64,000 bases of DNA from Sphingomonas aerophila (GTDB taxonomy: Bacteria; Pseudomonadota; Alphaproteobacteria; Sphingomonadales; Sphingomonadaceae), in assembly GCF_014199305.1 (NCBI RefSeq), contig NZ_JACIJK010000006.1:124001-188000 (forward strand), in the 5' to 3' direction. Position 1 is the stretch's first letter. Each line of letters starts with the position of its first letter. The notes beneath the pieces were generated by a model. That model was not told where the DNA came from and made no database searches. It worked only from the letters and a program-made list of their open reading frames with translations. Positions 12,480 through 17,221 of the stretch are shown here, one piece after another. The position numbers and the translations under genes were made by a program.

Positions 12480-13544
12480 CTATGTTGCCTTGATCAGATC
12501 GTGTCGGCGCAAGGCATGGCGCAGCTGGTCATAGGTCAGCCCCAGCGCCTCTGCCGCGGCACGCTGGTTGAACCGATGCTCGGCCAGGCTGCGGGCGAGC
12601 AGTTCCCGCTCAAACCGCGCGACCCGGCTCTTGAAGTCGGACGGCCCCGCCTCGCAAGCGGCGACCACGTCATCGTCACTGCCAGCAGCCGGTGACCTCT
12701 CGGCAGAGGCGGGCTCCGGCGAGGATGCGGGTGCTTGTGGCGCCGTCGATACCCTCGCTGGGCTGGTCGGTCGGTATGGCGACTGGAACGGGTCGATCTC
12801 GATCACGTCGACAGGAGCTTCCGTATCCCAGCGGTACACAGCGCGTTCGACAACGTTGCGCAGCTCACGCACGTTGCCCGGCCAGCGATACTCGGTCAGC
12901 ACCTGAGTCGCGGCGGCGCTGAATCCGGGCCAGTCGCGCCAGCCAAGCTCCGCCGCCATCCGCCGTCCGAAGTGGTCGGCAAGCACCATGATATCGGACC
13001 GGCGCGCCCGCAGCGGTGGCAGCGTCACGACCTCGAACGACAACCGGTCGAGCAGGTCGGCACGGAAGCTGCCGGCGTCGACCCGGTCGGGCAAATGTTC
13101 GTTGGTGGCAGCAACGATGCGCACGTCGACTCGCTGCGGCCGTGAGGAGCCGATACGGGTCACCTCCCCATATTCGACCGCGCGCAGCAAGCGTTCCTGC
13201 GCCCCCATCGACAGGGTGCCAAGCTCATCAAGGAACAGCGTGCCCCCGTCCGCCTCCTCGAACCGCCCCGCACGCATCTTGGTGGCGCCGGTGAAGGCGC
13301 CCGCCTCATGCCCAAACAGCTCCGCCTCGATCAGTGTCTCGGGCAGCGCGGCGCAATTCATGATCACCAACGGCTGGTCCCAACGAGGGGACAGACGATG
13401 CAGGCGTTCCGCGACCAATTCCTTGCCGGTGCCGCGCTCCCCGATCACCAGCACCGGCCGGTCGAGCGCAGCCGCCCTGCTCGCGCGCTCCAGGGCGTCG
13501 AGAAAGGCGCCGGACTGGCCAATGACCTGAGTAGTGCGCTCCAT
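12480..13544 (-). CDS. pspF: Sigma-54 activator PspF
   Basis: A 354-residue bacterial enhancer-binding protein with no N-terminal regulatory domain, as in PspF. It has an AAA+ domain with Walker A GERGTGKE (35-42), the sigma-54-contacting GAFTGA loop intact at 82-87, and a Walker B-like FLDELGTLS. A Pro/Ala/Ser-rich linker of about 40 residues follows, longer than in E. coli, then a Fis-type helix-turn-helix (FNQRAAAEALGLTYDQLRHA). It is divergent from the psp operon, and its start faces a sigma-54 promoter about 100 nt away. In E. coli PspA inhibits PspF directly; the same circuit is inferred here. The ATG 13544 (MERTTQVIGQ) matches the family start. Confidence 0.94.
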   Translation of the reverse strand: MERTTQVIGQSGAFLDALERASRAAALDRPVLVIGERGTGKELVAERLHRLSPRWDQPLVIMNCAALPETLIEAELFGHEAGAFTGATKMRAGRFEEADGGTLFLDELGTLSMGAQERLLRAVEYGEVTRIGSSRPQRVDVRIVAATNEHLPDRVDAGSFRADLLDRLSFEVVTLPPLRARRSDIMVLADHFGRRMAAELGWRDWPGFSAAATQVLTEYRWPGNVRELRNVVERAVYRWDTEAPVDVIEIDPFQSPYRPTSPARVSTAPQAPASSPEPASAERSPAAGSDDDVVAACEAGPSDFKSRVARFERELLARSLAEHRFNQRAAAEALGLTYDQLRHALRRHDLIKAT

Positions 13545-13646: not shown

Positions 13647-13663
13647 TTGGCACGGTGGATGCA
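13647..13663 (+). promoter_or_regulatory. Sigma-54 promoter of the psp operon
   Basis: TTGGCACG-GTGG-ATGCA matches the -24/-12 consensus, with the invariant GG at 13649-13650 and GC at 13661-13662 separated by exactly 10 nt. Transcription would start near 13674, ahead of the 43-codon leader gene. Presence of PspF next door makes this assignment strong. Confidence 0.88.
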
Positions 13664-13722: not shown

Positions 13723-13854
13723 ATGTTCAGCACCAACCTCCGCCGCCAGCTTGCCGCCGTCTTCTGCACCGTTCTGATGAGCTCGGCCTGTGTGTTGAGC
13801 GCTGTGGGGCCGGCACAGGTCGATGCTGCCGCCACCACGCGGTCAGTCGCATGA
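13723..13854 (+). CDS. Small signal-peptide-bearing protein at the head of the psp operon
   Basis: A 43-residue ORF with GAGGAG about 8 nt before its ATG. It reads MFSTNLRRQLAAVFCTVLMS, then ends AATTRSVA. The charged start, hydrophobic core and small residues (SAVGPAQVDAA) look like a Sec signal peptide with little mature part, or a small membrane peptide. It contains two cysteines. It lies 60 nt after the sigma-54 promoter and is the first ORF of the operon; its stop overlaps ATG 13851, an upstream in-frame start of pspA. I know of no described E. coli psp component like this. Confidence 0.6.
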   Translation: MFSTNLRRQLAAVFCTVLMSSACVLSAVGPAQVDAAATTRSVA

Positions 13855-13928: not shown

Positions 13929-14597
13929 ATGGGCATCTTTTCCCGCACCCGAGACATCATCGCCGCCAACATGGCGGACCTGCTGGAGAAGGCGGAGGAT
14001 CCCGCCAAGATGATCCGCATGATCATCCTGGAGATGGAGGAAACGCTGGTGGAGGTGCGCGCCTCGGCCGCCCGCACCATTGCCGACCAGAAGGAGATGC
14101 GCCGCCACGTCGTCAAGCTTGATGCGCTGCAGGAAAGCTGGACGGAAAAGGCAGAGCTCGCGCTGTCAAAGGGTCGCGAAGACCTGGCCAAGGCAGCGCT
14201 GGTCGAAAAGGGCAAGGCGGTCGACATGAGCGATCAGCTCAAGGCGGAGATCTCGGTCCTGGACGACGCGCTGCGCGCCAATGAAGAAGACATCGCCAAG
14301 CTGCAGAACAAGCTGCGCGAAGCACGGGTCAAGCAGGCCAACGTCCAGACCCGTCTGGAAAGCGCAACCAACCGCTTCCGCCTGCGTGACATGTATGCGG
14401 GTGCCAAGACCAACGAGGCCTTTAGCCGGTTCGACGTGCTGGAGCGCCGGGTGGACGAGGCAGAAGGTCGCGCCGACGCGATGGGCCTGGGCGTGGTCAA
14501 GAGCCTGGACGACGAGATCGCCGAGCTGCGCGCCAGCGACAAGGTGGATGCCGAGCTGGAAGCGCTCAAGGCCCGCATGATGAAGCGGGAGGGCTGA
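13929..14597 (+). CDS. pspA: Phage shock protein A (PspA/IM30/ESCRT-III family)
   Basis: A 222-residue coiled-coil protein that inhibits PspF in the soluble state and forms scaffolds on stressed inner membrane. The N-terminus MGIFSRTRDIIAANMADLLE with AEDPAKMIRMII and EMEETLVEVRASAARTIADQ is typical PspA. The rest is nearly continuous heptad sequence to KARMMKREG. I use ATG 13929 (family start, AGGAG 11 nt upstream). ATG 13851 is in frame, overlaps the stop of the leader gene, and would add 26 residues of low-complexity sequence. It is followed by pspB after 4 nt. Confidence 0.95.
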   Translation: MGIFSRTRDIIAANMADLLEKAEDPAKMIRMIILEMEETLVEVRASAARTIADQKEMRRHVVKLDALQESWTEKAELALSKGREDLAKAALVEKGKAVDMSDQLKAEISVLDDALRANEEDIAKLQNKLREARVKQANVQTRLESATNRFRLRDMYAGAKTNEAFSRFDVLERRVDEAEGRADAMGLGVVKSLDDEIAELRASDKVDAELEALKARMMKREG

Positions 14598-14601
14598 CGC
14601 G

Positions 14602-14895
14602 ATGGAAGACGTTGTTGTCCCCTTTATCGCCATCGTCACCCTGTTCATCGGGCTGCCCTGGCTAATCATGCATTACGTTACCAAGTGGCGGCAGGCGCCC
14701 AAGATCACCGAGGAAGACGAGCGTCTGCTGGACGAGATGTACAACCTCGCCAGACGCCTGGAGGACCGGGTGACCACGGTTGAACGGATCGTCGCCGCCG
14801 ACAATCCCGATTTCCGTCCCGGTCTGTCGAACGCCACCACGGATTGGCAGATCGAGAATACCAGTCGCAACTATTCGATCGATCGGAGGAACTGA
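14602..14895 (+). CDS. pspB: Envelope stress protein PspB
   Basis: A 97-residue inner-membrane protein with one N-terminal transmembrane helix (VVPFIAIVTLFIGLPWLIMH), then WRQAPKITEEDERLLDEMY and a coiled coil RLEDRVTTVERIVAAD. It is longer than E. coli PspB by about 20 C-terminal residues. With PspC it senses membrane damage and recruits PspA in E. coli. The coiled-coil motif VERI(V/A) reappears in the five downstream genes. It lies 4 nt after pspA and 1 nt before pspC. Confidence 0.93.
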   Translation: MEDVVVPFIAIVTLFIGLPWLIMHYVTKWRQAPKITEEDERLLDEMYNLARRLEDRVTTVERIVAADNPDFRPGLSNATTDWQIENTSRNYSIDRRN

Positions 14896-14896
14896 G

Positions 14897-15280
14897 ATGA
14901 GCGGGAGCCGTACCAAGTTCTACCTCGATAAGCAGAACGAGAAGTTCAAGGGTGTTTGCGCCGGCATCGCCGACTACACCGGGATCGAGGTACTGTGGGT
15001 CCGCGTGGCAGTGGTCCTGCTCACCGTGTCAGGCGTGGGTATGCCATGGGTTCCCCTGGCCTATTTTCTGGTCGCCTGGATGGCGAGCGCTAAGCCGACC
15101 GGCCTGTACGACACGCCGGAGGATGCCAAGTTCTGGCAGGGCGTTCGGACCAATCCCAAGCGCTCCACGGCTGAGGTCCGCTCCAAGTTCCGCGAACTCG
15201 ACAAGCGCCTGGCGGATATCGAGACGTTCTACACCAGCCGCAACACGCAGCTGGCGAGCGAGATCGACAGCCTGCGCTGA
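14897..15280 (+). CDS. pspC: Envelope stress protein PspC
   Basis: A 127-residue PspC-domain protein: FYLDKQNEKFKGVCAGIADY followed by a hydrophobic stretch WVRVAVVLLTVSGVGMPWVP and LAYFLVAWMA. After the membrane part comes a soluble segment with KFRELDKRLADIETFYTS and ASEIDSLR, the same (E/D)I-x-x-LR ending seen in the small genes downstream. ATG 14897 has GGAGGAACTGAG upstream. Acts with PspB as the membrane sensor of the psp response in enterobacteria; the role here is inferred from the family. Confidence 0.93.
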   Translation: MSGSRTKFYLDKQNEKFKGVCAGIADYTGIEVLWVRVAVVLLTVSGVGMPWVPLAYFLVAWMASAKPTGLYDTPEDAKFWQGVRTNPKRSTAEVRSKFRELDKRLADIETFYTSRNTQLASEIDSLR

Positions 15281-15310
15281 GGCAACACACGCAATCGAAG
15301 GGGGTTTTCG

Positions 15311-15610
15311 ATGGACATGGGCTGGATGGTGCCGGTGGGGATTGTGGGTGCGGTCAGCGCCAGCCACGCCTTTCGCACCTGGGTTCGCGCCAAGCACGGC
15401 TATCCGCTGGACGAAGGTCGCGGTCGGCGCCGGTCGCGGGGCGACGGGAATGACTTGGGGGAAGACCGCAAGATCGCGCTGCTGACGCAGGAGAACGAGC
15501 GGCTGAACGGCCAAGTCGGTCGACTGGAAGAAAGGCTGCGTGTGCTGGAGCGGATCGCCACAGATCCCGCCGCCCGCACCGCCCGGGAGATTGACGCGCT
15601 ACGCGACTGA
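15311..15610 (+). CDS. Psp-associated membrane coiled-coil protein 1
   Basis: A 99-residue protein with an N-terminal hydrophobic segment (WMVPVGIVGAVSASHAF), a juxtamembrane WVRAKHGYPLD, a basic Arg/Gly linker, and a coiled coil LLTQENERL through RLEERLRVLERIATD, ending EIDALRD. The WxRxKxGYPLD and L(L)xQEN segments are shared with the next gene, which marks them as paralogues. Layout and the LERI motif resemble PspB. It lies 30 nt after pspC, with GGGGG a few bases before the ATG, inside the psp operon. No function is known to me. Confidence 0.7.
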   Translation: MDMGWMVPVGIVGAVSASHAFRTWVRAKHGYPLDEGRGRRRSRGDGNDLGEDRKIALLTQENERLNGQVGRLEERLRVLERIATDPAARTAREIDALRD

Positions 15611-15621
15611 GGAGAACTGTC

Positions 15622-15948
15622 GTGTCACATGAAACCTACCAGATCATCATGGGCTTCTTTCCCCTGATCTGCATCATCGTTGGCATCTCGGTCGGCGGTT
15701 GGGTGCTGACCACCTGGCTGCGGATCAAGAACGGTTATCCGCTGGACGGGGCATGGGGGCAGGCGATCTACCCGCAGAAGAACGAGGAAACGGTGGAGCG
15801 CGTGAAGCTGCTGAGTCAGGAGAACGCGCAACTGCGCGCCGAGCTTGGGTCGATCAAGGACCGGCTCGCCAATGTTGAGCGGATCGTGACGGACAGCAGC
15901 CATCAGCTCGACCGCGATATCGAGGCGCTTCGCCTCAAGGCCAACTGA
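15622..15948 (+). CDS. Psp-associated membrane coiled-coil protein 2
   Basis: A 108-residue paralogue of the preceding protein: hydrophobic GFFPLICIIVGISVGGWVL, juxtamembrane WLRIKNGYPLD, then RVKLLSQENAQLRAELGSIK and DRLANVERIVTD, ending DIEALRLKAN. One transmembrane helix with a cytoplasmic coiled coil is the likely topology. It starts 11 nt after its neighbour with GAGGAG upstream. The VERIVTD sequence is nearly the same as VERIVAAD of PspB and LERIVTD of the next gene. Confidence 0.7.
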   Translation: MSHETYQIIMGFFPLICIIVGISVGGWVLTTWLRIKNGYPLDGAWGQAIYPQKNEETVERVKLLSQENAQLRAELGSIKDRLANVERIVTDSSHQLDRDIEALRLKAN

Positions 15949-15959
15949 GGAGAATTTCG

Positions 15960-16226
15960 ATGAGCCCACTCCTGATCCCGATCTTCGCCCTCATCATCCC
16001 GATCGTGGCGATCATTTGCGGCGTGGTGGTGAAGCCTTGGCTGGCCCTGAAAGAGCGCCAGATGGAGATGAACTCGGTCGCAACCGCTGAAAAGGCGGCA
16101 CAATATGCCGCTCAAACCGAACGGCTGGAACAGCGGGTGCGAGTGCTGGAGCGGATCGTGACCGACCGCGGCATTGCAGTAGCTGACGAGATTGAGCGGC
16201 TGCGCGACGACCGCCCGCTGAACTGA
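15960..16226 (+). CDS. Psp-associated membrane coiled-coil protein 3
   Basis: An 88-residue protein: N-terminal helix LLIPIFALIIPIVAIICGVV, a short WLALKERQMEM segment, and coiled coil ETAEKAA-like region leading to RLEQRVRVLERIVTD and EIERLRD. It lacks the GYPLD motif of the previous two. It begins 11 nt after the preceding stop with GAGGAG upstream. The conserved (L/V)ERIVTD followed by an (E/D)I-x-x-LR motif about 10-15 residues later places it in the same family. Confidence 0.7.
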   Translation: MSPLLIPIFALIIPIVAIICGVVVKPWLALKERQMEMNSVATAEKAAQYAAQTERLEQRVRVLERIVTDRGIAVADEIERLRDDRPLN

Positions 16227-16249
16227 ACACCGGAAAAGGGAAAGATCCC

Positions 16250-16483
16250 ATGAGCGTTTATGCGATGGTCGTCATGATCGTTCTGATCGTGACGATGGGG
16301 AAAGTGCTGGGCGGTCGCCACCGTATTCATCGGGGCACGGGGATCGACAACGCCGACTCCATGCGCCTGCAGGGCGAAGTGCAACAGCTGAGGGAGCGCA
16401 TCCAGGTACTGGAGCGCGTCATCACCGACAGTCATTCCAGCGTCGACCTCGATCGTGAGATCGAGCGCCTTCGCGACCGCTGA
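16250..16483 (+). CDS. Psp-associated membrane coiled-coil protein 4
   Basis: A 77-residue protein with a short N-terminal helix (VYAMVVMIVLIVTMGKVLGG), an RHRIHRGTG linker and coiled coil QLRERIQVLERVITD, ending EIERLRDR. It is the shortest of the full-motif members. It sits 23 nt after protein 3, with AAGGGAAAG upstream of the ATG, and 15 nt before the next gene. Confidence 0.68.
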   Translation: MSVYAMVVMIVLIVTMGKVLGGRHRIHRGTGIDNADSMRLQGEVQQLRERIQVLERVITDSHSSVDLDREIERLRDR

Positions 16484-16498
16484 GAAGGAGGCGGAACC

Positions 16499-16741
16499 AT
16501 GGACACCAATGCTTACCTTGTGCTCGCCAGCGCTTCCATCACCGGGCTTGGCATGGTTACCGCGGCAGGGCTTGCCGGCTGGCGCGGCTGGCTGCAGCTG
16601 AAGCGGCAGGAGCTCGACCACAGCCATGCCGGGGCGGCCGGCGCCACGGGCGCGGCAAGTGCGGGCGCCCGGATCGAGATGGCCGATCTACGTGAGCGAA
16701 TCCGAAAGCTGGAGGCGATCGCGGCGGGCGTCGAGCTATGA
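16499..16741 (+). CDS. Psp-associated membrane coiled-coil protein 5
   Basis: An 80-residue protein with hydrophobic LVLASASITGLGMVTAAGLAG, then WRGWLQLKRQELDHS, an Ala/Gly-rich linker and a coiled coil DLRERIRKLEAIAAG. The motif is degenerate (LEAI in place of LERI) and the terminal EI-x-x-LR is missing, so it is the most divergent member. GAAGGAGG precedes the ATG. It closes the run of small genes; its stop overlaps the ATG of a 30-codon frame. Confidence 0.65.
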   Translation: MDTNAYLVLASASITGLGMVTAAGLAGWRGWLQLKRQELDHSHAGAAGATGAASAGARIEMADLRERIRKLEAIAAGVEL

Positions 16742-16830
16742 CCTATCGCCGTTCCTTGCCGCCCGGCCCTGCAGCGGTTGCGGCGGCGGCGGGGGCACTG
16801 TACCGGCGGCGCTATGGCGACCCTCGCTGA
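16738..16830 (+). CDS. Possible 30-residue micro-ORF before sufE
   Basis: ATG 16738 overlaps the preceding stop (ATGA). The frame reads MTYRRSLPPGP, an Ala-rich stretch and LYRRRYGDPR, ending 17 nt inside sufE. An alanine-rich core flanked by arginines could be a tiny membrane peptide, but the length gives little statistical support. It may only couple translation to sufE. Confidence 0.28.
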   Translation: MTYRRSLPPGPAAVAAAAGALYRRRYGDPR

Positions 16831-17221
16831 CTTGCATGAAGAATATGACTTTCTCGACGGCGACGACCGCTACCGGTTGCTGATTGATCTGGGGCGTGGG
16901 CTGGAAGTGATGCCGCCAGCGCTCAAGACAGACGCGACGCTGGTACGGGGATGCTCCGCCTCCGTATGGGTATATCCGATGCGGCGTGAGGACGGGACGC
17001 TCCATTTCCTGGCCGACTCCAACGCTGCGATCACCAAGGGGATCATCGCCCTGGTCCTGCTGACGGTTCAGGACCGATCGCCTGCGGAAATCACGGCCAC
17101 CGACATTGAAGGCGCTTTGGCCCCGTTCGACCTGAAGGCGCAGCTCAGCTCCAACCGGACGCAGGGCATTCCCAATATGATTGCGCTGATCCGCGAAACC
17201 GCCGCCCGTTACGCAGCCTGA
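16814..17221 (+). CDS. sufE: SufE-family sulfur acceptor protein
   Basis: A 135-residue SufE/CsdE-like protein that accepts persulfide sulfur from a cysteine desulfurase and passes it to the Suf scaffold. The catalytic cysteine lies in LVRGCSASVWV. Other family features are the N-terminal EEYDFLDGDDRYRLLIDLGR, ITKGIIALVLLTV and the C-terminal GIPNMIALIRETA. ATG 16814 matches the family start. No other suf gene is in the immediate neighbourhood; two cysteine desulfurases occur at 33.4-35.6 kb. It lies downstream of the psp genes and may be read through from them. Confidence 0.92.
   Translation: MATLADLHEEYDFLDGDDRYRLLIDLGRGLEVMPPALKTDATLVRGCSASVWVYPMRREDGTLHFLADSNAAITKGIIALVLLTVQDRSPAEITATDIEGALAPFDLKAQLSSNRTQGIPNMIALIRETAARYAA

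Follow-up and report, generated by a model that had tools for sequence, protein, structure and literature searches.

The psp operon of Sphingomonas aerophila and its five additional genes

We analysed a 64,000-nucleotide stretch of the Sphingomonas aerophila genome (contig NZ_JACIJK010000006.1, positions 124,001 to 188,000; hereafter the window), in which pspA, pspB and pspC are followed by five small genes, referred to here as the array. A first-pass annotation made from the sequence alone had placed an extended psp operon at 14602-16741 and had read the array as a PspB-derived family. The genes are present in that interval, but the operon starts further upstream, with pspA at 13929 and a sigma-54-like site at 13648-13663. 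The features of the locus are listed below, with profile scores where available.

12480..13544, minus strand, divergent: pspF, sigma-54 activator for the psp operon (TIGR02974, 486 bits; cut-off 443.55)
13648..13663, plus strand: sigma-54-type -24/-12 site, TGGCACGGTGGATGCA, 5' of pspA (from the sequence)
13723..13854, plus strand: exported-type open reading frame (ORF) of 43 amino acids (aa), in the interval between promoter and pspA, outside the array
13929..14597, plus strand: pspA (TIGR02977, 267 bits; cut-off 242.95)
14602..14895, plus strand: pspB (PF06667, 87.1 bits; cut-off 25.6)
14897..15280, plus strand: pspC, with the tail end ...RLADIETFYTSRNTQLASEIDSLR (TIGR02978, 118 bits; cut-off 104)
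15311..15610, plus strand: array protein 1; marginal membrane helix, KxGYPLD linker, coiled coil, PspC-type tail
15622..15948, plus strand: array protein 2; membrane helix, KxGYPLD linker, coiled coil, PspC-type tail
15960..16226, plus strand: array protein 3; membrane helix, coiled coil, PspC-type tail (PF06667, 26.4 bits; cut-off 25.6)
16250..16483, plus strand: array protein 4; membrane helix, coiled coil, PspC-type tail (PF06667, 21.1, below cut-off; family alignment)
16499..16741, plus strand: array protein 5; membrane helix, short coil, end ADLRERIRKLEAIAAGVEL, without EIxxLR (family alignment)
16814..17221, plus strand: sufE, the usual right neighbour of the array and probably outside it (PF02657, 111 bits)

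The five genes follow pspC at the close spacing of 11-30 nt first noticed: the gaps from pspC through the gene of protein 5 are 30, 11, 11, 23, and 15 nt, and all five genes are co-directional with pspABC. The gene of protein 2 has a GTG start codon. To place the locus among its relatives, a PF06667 search for PspB was run on 149 genomes of the family (Sphingomonadaceae), of which 137 were matched, 13 of them (including that of the window) with a second, weaker match; the window and 101 of the other 136 PspB-bearing genomes supplied 102 psp loci. A sigma-54 site with at most one mismatch occurred 5' of pspA in 65 of these loci and in 0/102 shuffles. A simple scan between 13500 and 17300, in which few matches would be expected, detected no terminator-like and no sigma-70-like promoter match. 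The array shows several traits of a psp operon, namely co-direction with pspABC, short gaps, the upstream sigma-54 site, and retention in relatives. As far as the accessible parts of three Zymomonas transcriptome papers go, pspA, pspB, and pspC were induced in two and pspA in one; a hypothetical gene preceding pspA is mentioned in all three, and array genes are not named in these parts. Relatives of the 43-aa ORF at 13723-13854 stand at the same place in 40/102 loci, some of them with a longer C-terminal part that is TonB-C-like by eye.

The typical array protein, in the window and in the corresponding types 1-5 of relatives, consists of an N-terminal helix, a coiled coil, and a short tail. 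Kyte-Doolittle means for the N-terminal helix (17 residues) were 1.37 (marginal), 2.71, 3.21, 2.35, and 1.74 for proteins 1-5, in keeping with the helix first assigned to each, and were at least 1.6 in 405 of 415 array proteins of types 1-5. Since the flanking charge averages negative before the helix and positive after it in every type, as in PspB, the C-terminus is predicted to lie inside, and a single N-terminal membrane helix with this orientation is predicted for the array proteins, marginally so for protein 1. AlphaFold modelled protein 2 as helices 3-37 and 55-107 joined by a weak linker, with a predicted local distance difference test score (pLDDT) of 78.6 and a predicted template-modelling score of 0.32; the model of PspC (mean pLDDT 60) was too poor for a comparison of tails.

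The motif (L/V)ER(I/V)(A/V/I)TD followed by (E/D)I-x-x-LR, which had been ascribed to four of the proteins, can be read in proteins 1-4 as LERIATD..EIDALR, VERIVTD..DIEALR, LERIVTD..EIERLR, and LERVITD..EIERLR, respectively. The VERIVAAD of PspB and the EIDSLR at the end of PspC are present as described, as are the W(V/L)RxKxGYPLD and LL(T/S)QEN segments common to proteins 1 and 2; by eye, the KxGYPL flank is restricted to types 1 and 2. A generalised tail pattern, R(LIVMTAG)xxxE...(E/D/Q)(I/V/L/F)xxL, matched 314/324 proteins of types 1-4, 5/91 of type 5, and 176/6480 shuffled copies. Protein 5 had been regarded as a degenerate form of the others. However, it belongs to a separate conserved family, usually last in the array, with a C-terminus, LxERxxxLEAIAxG, that is almost invariant among 26 aligned members. 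A sequence search of solved structures gave only generic coiled coils for the protein-2 type and nothing convincing for PspB or PspC, and a PHROGs search gave a single weak match of unknown function (expectation value (E) 0.0033).

Conservation of the array in the family

Array genes were called in relatives with iterated profiles at 30 bits or more. Two of the 102 loci were dropped for contig ends (L025, L031) and one for broken psp genes (L040), and an array was found 3' of pspC in 98 of the 99 assessable loci, with a total of 416 genes, one of them labelled PspB. Thus, the proposal of a paralogue family that expanded inside the psp operon held up, and its genes are kept in other psp loci. 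Arrays of one gene occurred in 5 loci, two in 7, three in 11, four in 34, five in 25, six in 10, seven in 5, and eight in 1; four array genes shorter than 60 aa (in L038, L090, and two in L114) may be fragments. In the exceptional locus, L078, PspC is intact and the same strand carries no array in the interval from pspC to sufE, to which the search was confined in that genome. Within arrays, the median gap was 13 nt (n = 318), with 248 gaps of at most 30 nt, 106 overlaps, and 2 gaps longer than 100 nt. Gene order is also conserved, with type 5 closing the array in 91/98 loci and type 4 in the penultimate position in 77/93. sufE was detected in 87/102 loci, and in loci such as L041 and L121 it lies more than 1.5 kb off, with the array still beside pspC. 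In three loci (L036 1778-1973, L052 1785-1974, L110 1784-1976, oriented), pspB and the full pspC are separated by an additional short gene for a stand-alone PspC-like protein of 62-64 aa.

When GTDB genomes were searched with the protein-2 profile, 560 relatives were obtained; the best 80 loci were retained and are hence selected for that gene. Among these best 80 of 560, the 79 with a full pspC call carry arrays of 2-8 genes with type 5 last in 76, and L228 has array genes without a full pspC call. The records are of sphingomonads or unspecific bacteria, with two exceptions; L208 (Arthrobacter sp. TPD3018) and L245 (Bacillus sp. 2B10) have sphingomonad-type psp loci and are probably mislabelled or contaminated genomes. 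A gap of ~165-230 nt between the type-3 gene and the next array gene is recurrent in many Sphingomonas loci (L192, L196, L198, L212-L215, L219, L227, L244, and others), where an internal regulatory element or a missed gene is possible.

Ratios of nonsynonymous to synonymous substitution rates (dN/dS), obtained from 19 close pairs with up to 34 pooled comparisons, were 0.21, 0.29, 0.27, and 0.20 for types 2, 3, 4, and 5, respectively (type 1 yielded no comparison), and 0.11, 0.19, and 0.14 for PspA, PspB, and PspC. Array types 2-5 are under purifying selection. A paralogue tree of 95 rows and 89 columns from 13 loci, in which an array copy stands in place of the L121 PspB, required 14 changes of type, against a mean of 62.9 after shuffling, and 83 changes of locus. 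Support was 99 for type 5 and 97 for one protein-2 clade; 35 of 91 forks are open, and so is the order of duplication. Since the tree groups by type and not by locus, the paralogue types appear to be older than the genera, and this grouping rules out recent duplication within genomes as the main source of the arrays.

We also searched wider samples, for which the lists of unmatched genomes were partial and family totals refer to the matches listed. In an order-wide sample of 118, the type-5 profile matched at least 34 family genomes, with G040 unmatched, and weakly matched four outsiders from another family, f177 (E 1.9e-4 to 6.5e-4). In a class-wide sample of 385, it matched five family genomes among the matches listed and two weak outsiders. 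The protein-2 profile picked up the same five family genomes along with four outsiders, one of them real (G329) and three unrelated coiled coils (G336, G428, G206). From these samples, the array proper looks like a family trait. PspB itself was found in 45/385 of the class-wide genomes at E 0.001, with 42 above the cut-off. In G077 a type-5 gene lies at 2.01 Mb, far from the psp operon at 1.28 Mb.

Likeness of the tails to PspC and PspB

PspB (PF06667, TIGR02976) resembles the array proteins in its small size, single N-terminal membrane helix, cytoplasmic coiled coil, (V/L)ER(I)V-like motif, and location in the same operon; however, E. coli PspB ends in AEHPNWRDR whereas array proteins 1-4 end in EIxxLR. 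The PspC tail (TIGR02978, region 67-121) shares with the array a coiled helix and an E..(V/Y)TS/VTD segment that is followed by EIxxL(R). Unlike PspC, the array tails sit on a single-helix anchor of their own without the PspC domain PF04024, which matched none of the five proteins. A terminal EIxxL was present in 301/324 proteins of types 1-4, 97/100 PspC, 5/103 PspB, and 0/91 of type 5.

Profile-profile comparisons (hhalign) aligned the protein-2 type to the PspC tail with an E of 1.6e-7 over 36 columns that reach PspC's last residue, and the protein-3 type to the same tail with 5.9e-5, these being the two types covered by the PspC comparison. Against the PspB profile, E was 5.7e-5 for the protein-2 type, 1e-4 for the protein-3 type, and a weak 0.006 for the protein-4 type; type 5 reached 0.03, with only the membrane helix aligned, and matched the protein-3 type profile at 1.5e-5. 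The PspB likeness of the array proteins is confined to ~25-60 residues. Pfam PspB at E 0.01 was found in 7/20 protein-3 and 5/24 protein-4 members but in 0/26 protein-2 and 0/26 protein-5 members. Of the array proteins of the window, only protein 3 passes the PF06667 gathering score (25.6), while proteins 1, 2, and 5 had no PF06667 match up to E 10; none passes the TIGR02976 cut-off of 51.7 bits, the best being protein 3 with 32.6 bits. That all five are PspB is ruled out by these Pfam and NCBIfam cut-offs. The earlier label, PspB-derived, thus keeps its profile likeness for types 2 and 3 and weakly for type 4, but loses it for protein 5, which has no similarity beyond the helix, and the PspC tail matches at least equally well.

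Similar results were obtained with the whole 4.0-Mb genome. The top six matches of the protein-3 profile were proteins 1-4, the PspC tail, and PspB, with the first outsider at E 0.055; the protein-2 profile placed psp-operon genes at ranks 1-5 and 7, with a sole outsider at E 0.2, and matched protein 1 at E 3.7e-26. Neither profile retrieved protein 5 from the genome, and the protein-5 profile retrieved itself and protein 3 (E 1e-4). From these sequence comparisons we conclude that the module common to the array proteins, PspC, and PspB is the tail, and that types 1-4 are nearer to PspC at their end and PspB-like in layout; derivation from PspB is one possible history.

Relatives of the tails were also found outside the family, at the following loci.

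L275 4063-4552 and L276 3826-4314: two-gene end of the psp operon, other alphaproteobacterial family
L286-L297, L300, L301: orphan tail loci, other classes
L282-L285: orphan tail loci, f177
L273, L299: orphan tail loci, f146

In G321 and G416, which belong to one alphaproteobacterial family, the psp operon ends with two small genes for single-helix proteins, the tail being of the PspC type in the first kind (ERYVTSPEFGLNRQFRDL) and of the PspB type in the other (ERILDAEAPGWR); these are apparently independent of the sphingomonad array. In a phylum sample of 299, the protein-2 profile matched 13 family genomes (among the matches listed) and 17 others. G644 (a 1185-aa frame), G676 (370 aa), and G428 (a 111-aa ORF without a membrane helix by eye, resembling an unrelated coiled coil, in a genome with no PspC) were excluded, and the remaining 14 of the 17 matches are small ORFs located apart from psp genes; two of them belong to the same class and twelve to other classes of the phylum. 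These orphans are single-helix proteins of ~64-100 aa with PspC-type tails, found one or two per genome outside psp operons; in G834 (L289 3468-4017) two of them are in tandem. In the 12 of 14 genomes from which proteins were read (all but G876 and G878), the tails are mostly VLE(K/R)IVTDxxYxLxxxIxxL-like. Ten orphan relatives were scanned (eight from six of the 14 genomes, one from f177, and one from G329), and the best NCBIfam match was PspB or PspC in 10/10, all below cut-off.

PspA and PspC are both present in 14/14 orphan-carrier genomes. PspC was found in 30/235 genomes of a separately drawn phylum sample and in 21/226 outside the family, and eight of those 21 are orphan carriers. Co-occurrence with PspC in eight of eight would have a probability of 1.4e-9 if independent. 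However, since no more than four families are represented by these eight genomes and the two samples were separate draws, the association of orphan tails with PspC is suggestive rather than proven.

Possible roles of the array proteins

The pspF-divergent pspABC core of the window is the same as in E. coli pspABCDE and, in the accessible text of PMC3467454, Yersinia pspABCD-ycjXF; E. coli has pspD and pspE where the sphingomonad has its array, and E. coli PspD has no such tail by eye. In enterobacteria, the PspC tail contacts PspA under stress, pulling PspA off PspF and onto the membrane. We consider it somewhat more probable than otherwise that the five genes extend the psp operon throughout the lineage, with proteins 1-4 serving as extra single-helix anchors with PspC-type, PspA-docking tails. 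The earlier suggestion of a hetero-oligomeric sensor or PspA anchor would thereby be refined to a hypothesis of PspC-type docking tails. As given in the excerpts available of two papers, PspA is bound by the C-terminus of PspC under stress and thereby brought to the membrane (PMC6003685), and it is the C-terminal domain of PspC that binds PspA in the on state (PMC5596341). The first of these also states that a change at V125 of Yersinia PspC abolishes the PspC/PspA interaction and that V105D in E. coli PspC abolishes PspC-dependent signalling, the latter cited as in preparation (PMC6003685). In our alignment, V105 is the V of ERYVTSD and lies inside the tail motif of the array, where array tails mostly have V or A. 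Because the published binding is by the PspC tail and the V105 column falls in the array motif, we infer that types 1-4 are extra docks. A natural variant in favour of this role is found in G040 (L298 3622-4407; no PF06667 match), where PspC is 88 aa long with an in-frame stop before the tail, and type-3 and type-4 genes with intact tails directly follow. The likeness of the tails, the EIxxL end, the predicted topology, the tight spacing, the purifying selection, and the presence of PspA and PspC in all 14 orphan-carrier genomes also speak for docking tails.

Under this model, proteins 1-4 would contribute additional PspC-type docking tails on separate membrane anchors and, like the rest of the array, would be made in bulk after the operon is switched on. 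They could pair with PspB, PspC, or one another via their coiled coils, and their tails would offer several, differently tuned attachment points for the PspA polymer and might also dock the PspB/PspC switch. Protein 5, the tail of which has no EIxxLR, would most likely be a partner or cap rather than a PspA dock; this is the weakest step, and protein 5 does not fit the docking model.

Other observations also weigh against docking tails. The V105 column is Y in 65/99 family PspC, including that of the window, and mostly V or A in the array, so that only a loose hydrophobic class is kept there; PspB has V or I in this column as well, and the residue alone is thus no marker of a PspA dock. The profiles of family PspB and PspC align with each other over the membrane helix only (8.7e-4) and not over the tail, the parts of the proteins beyond that helix align over just 24-47 columns, and unrelated coiled coils in G336, G428, and G206 are likewise matched by the protein-2 profile (E 5e-5 to 9e-4). 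Pfam gave PspB as best match for only 5/10 orphan relatives, all below cut-off, and L078 has an intact PspC tail yet no array at that place.

Several alternatives can be weighed against the same data. The array proteins might be diversified off-switch partners of the PspB type, which hold the PspC tail off and tune the threshold and input range of PspBC rather than docking PspA. Partners in such a binding-domain switch exclude each other, and a 2015 paper in the Journal of Biological Chemistry concerns, by its title, a partner switch of a binding domain. One helix followed by a cytoplasmic coil is the layout of PspB, protein 3 scores above the Pfam PspB cut-off, and by eye the membrane helices vary more between subfamilies than the tails do, as those of sensors for different inputs might. 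However, types 1-4 end in EIxxL as PspC does and PspB rarely does, and the protein-2 type has its best profile match in the PspC tail. This explanation is rather unlikely. It is less likely still that types 1-4 are themselves the effectors and act on membrane complexes that are damaged or mislocalised, with PspA merely accompanying them. Yersinia offers a parallel, since PspBC there forms a complex with mislocalised secretins and suffices against secretin toxicity (PMC5596341, in part). By eye it is the tail and not the membrane helix that is conserved across types 1-4, with the KxGYPL flank adding to it in types 1-2 only, and since the tail is what these types conserve, a membrane part that acts as effector would be unexpected.

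An unrelated task, for instance with sufE, would make the position behind pspC fortuitous and the likeness of tails a convergence of coiled coils. The frequency of sufE as a neighbour and the chance matches to coiled coils of such length, both in the solved-structure search and in the three unrelated profile matches, would fit such a convergence, but the array keeps to pspC in loci in which sufE is remote, psp genes rank first in the genome-wide searches, and all ten scanned orphans had PspB or PspC as best NCBIfam match, albeit below cut-off. We regard this explanation as very unlikely, and the variable distance of sufE rules out the array as a sufE operon. That the genes are non-functional copies in decay is extremely improbable: array size does range from 0 to 8 across genomes and a few array ORFs have only 47-52 aa, but the pooled dN/dS is 0.20-0.29, the order is conserved, and the subfamilies are old.

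The mechanism that recruits PspA to damaged membrane is an open question, as is the contribution of PspB and PspC. The experimental PspBC papers that we met concern, in their accessible parts, E. coli and Yersinia, each of which has a single PspB and a single PspC. Up to eight extra genes, together with the tail-less PspC of G040, offer a natural test of whether the tail alone recruits PspA, and the array family also tests whether several anchors shift the threshold or the place of the response. The PspA polymer is ESCRT-III-like. More tentatively, anchors with Psp tails may form a general, uncatalogued family of small membrane proteins, of which the sphingomonads would have made a graded, multi-anchor scaffold within the psp operon, the mix of helices determining the membrane site at which the PspA polymer nucleates, with unlinked copies elsewhere in the phylum acting alike as silent Psp members; this would add candidate unnamed Psp components in genomes where the neighbourhood of pspA gives no hint of them.

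We found no description of the sphingomonad array in the open-licence literature, and such arrays are not mentioned in the accessible parts of Popp et al. (2022; PMC9239133). Duplicates of PspB in psp operons are already published (example AOL22920.1), as is a PspC whose C-terminal part is a divergent PspB (Ravi et al., 2024; PMC11237479); the accessible text of that paper gives one clause to the duplicates and does not describe a multi-gene array, subfamilies, a closing gene, or PspC-type tails on separate anchors. Two further psp loci have additional genes of the PspB kind. In the alphaproteobacterium G470 (L277 2749-3847), the order is pspA, pspB, a short pspC, a second PspB-like gene, and pspC, and in G828 (L302 1360-1817) two tandem PspB genes precede pspC.

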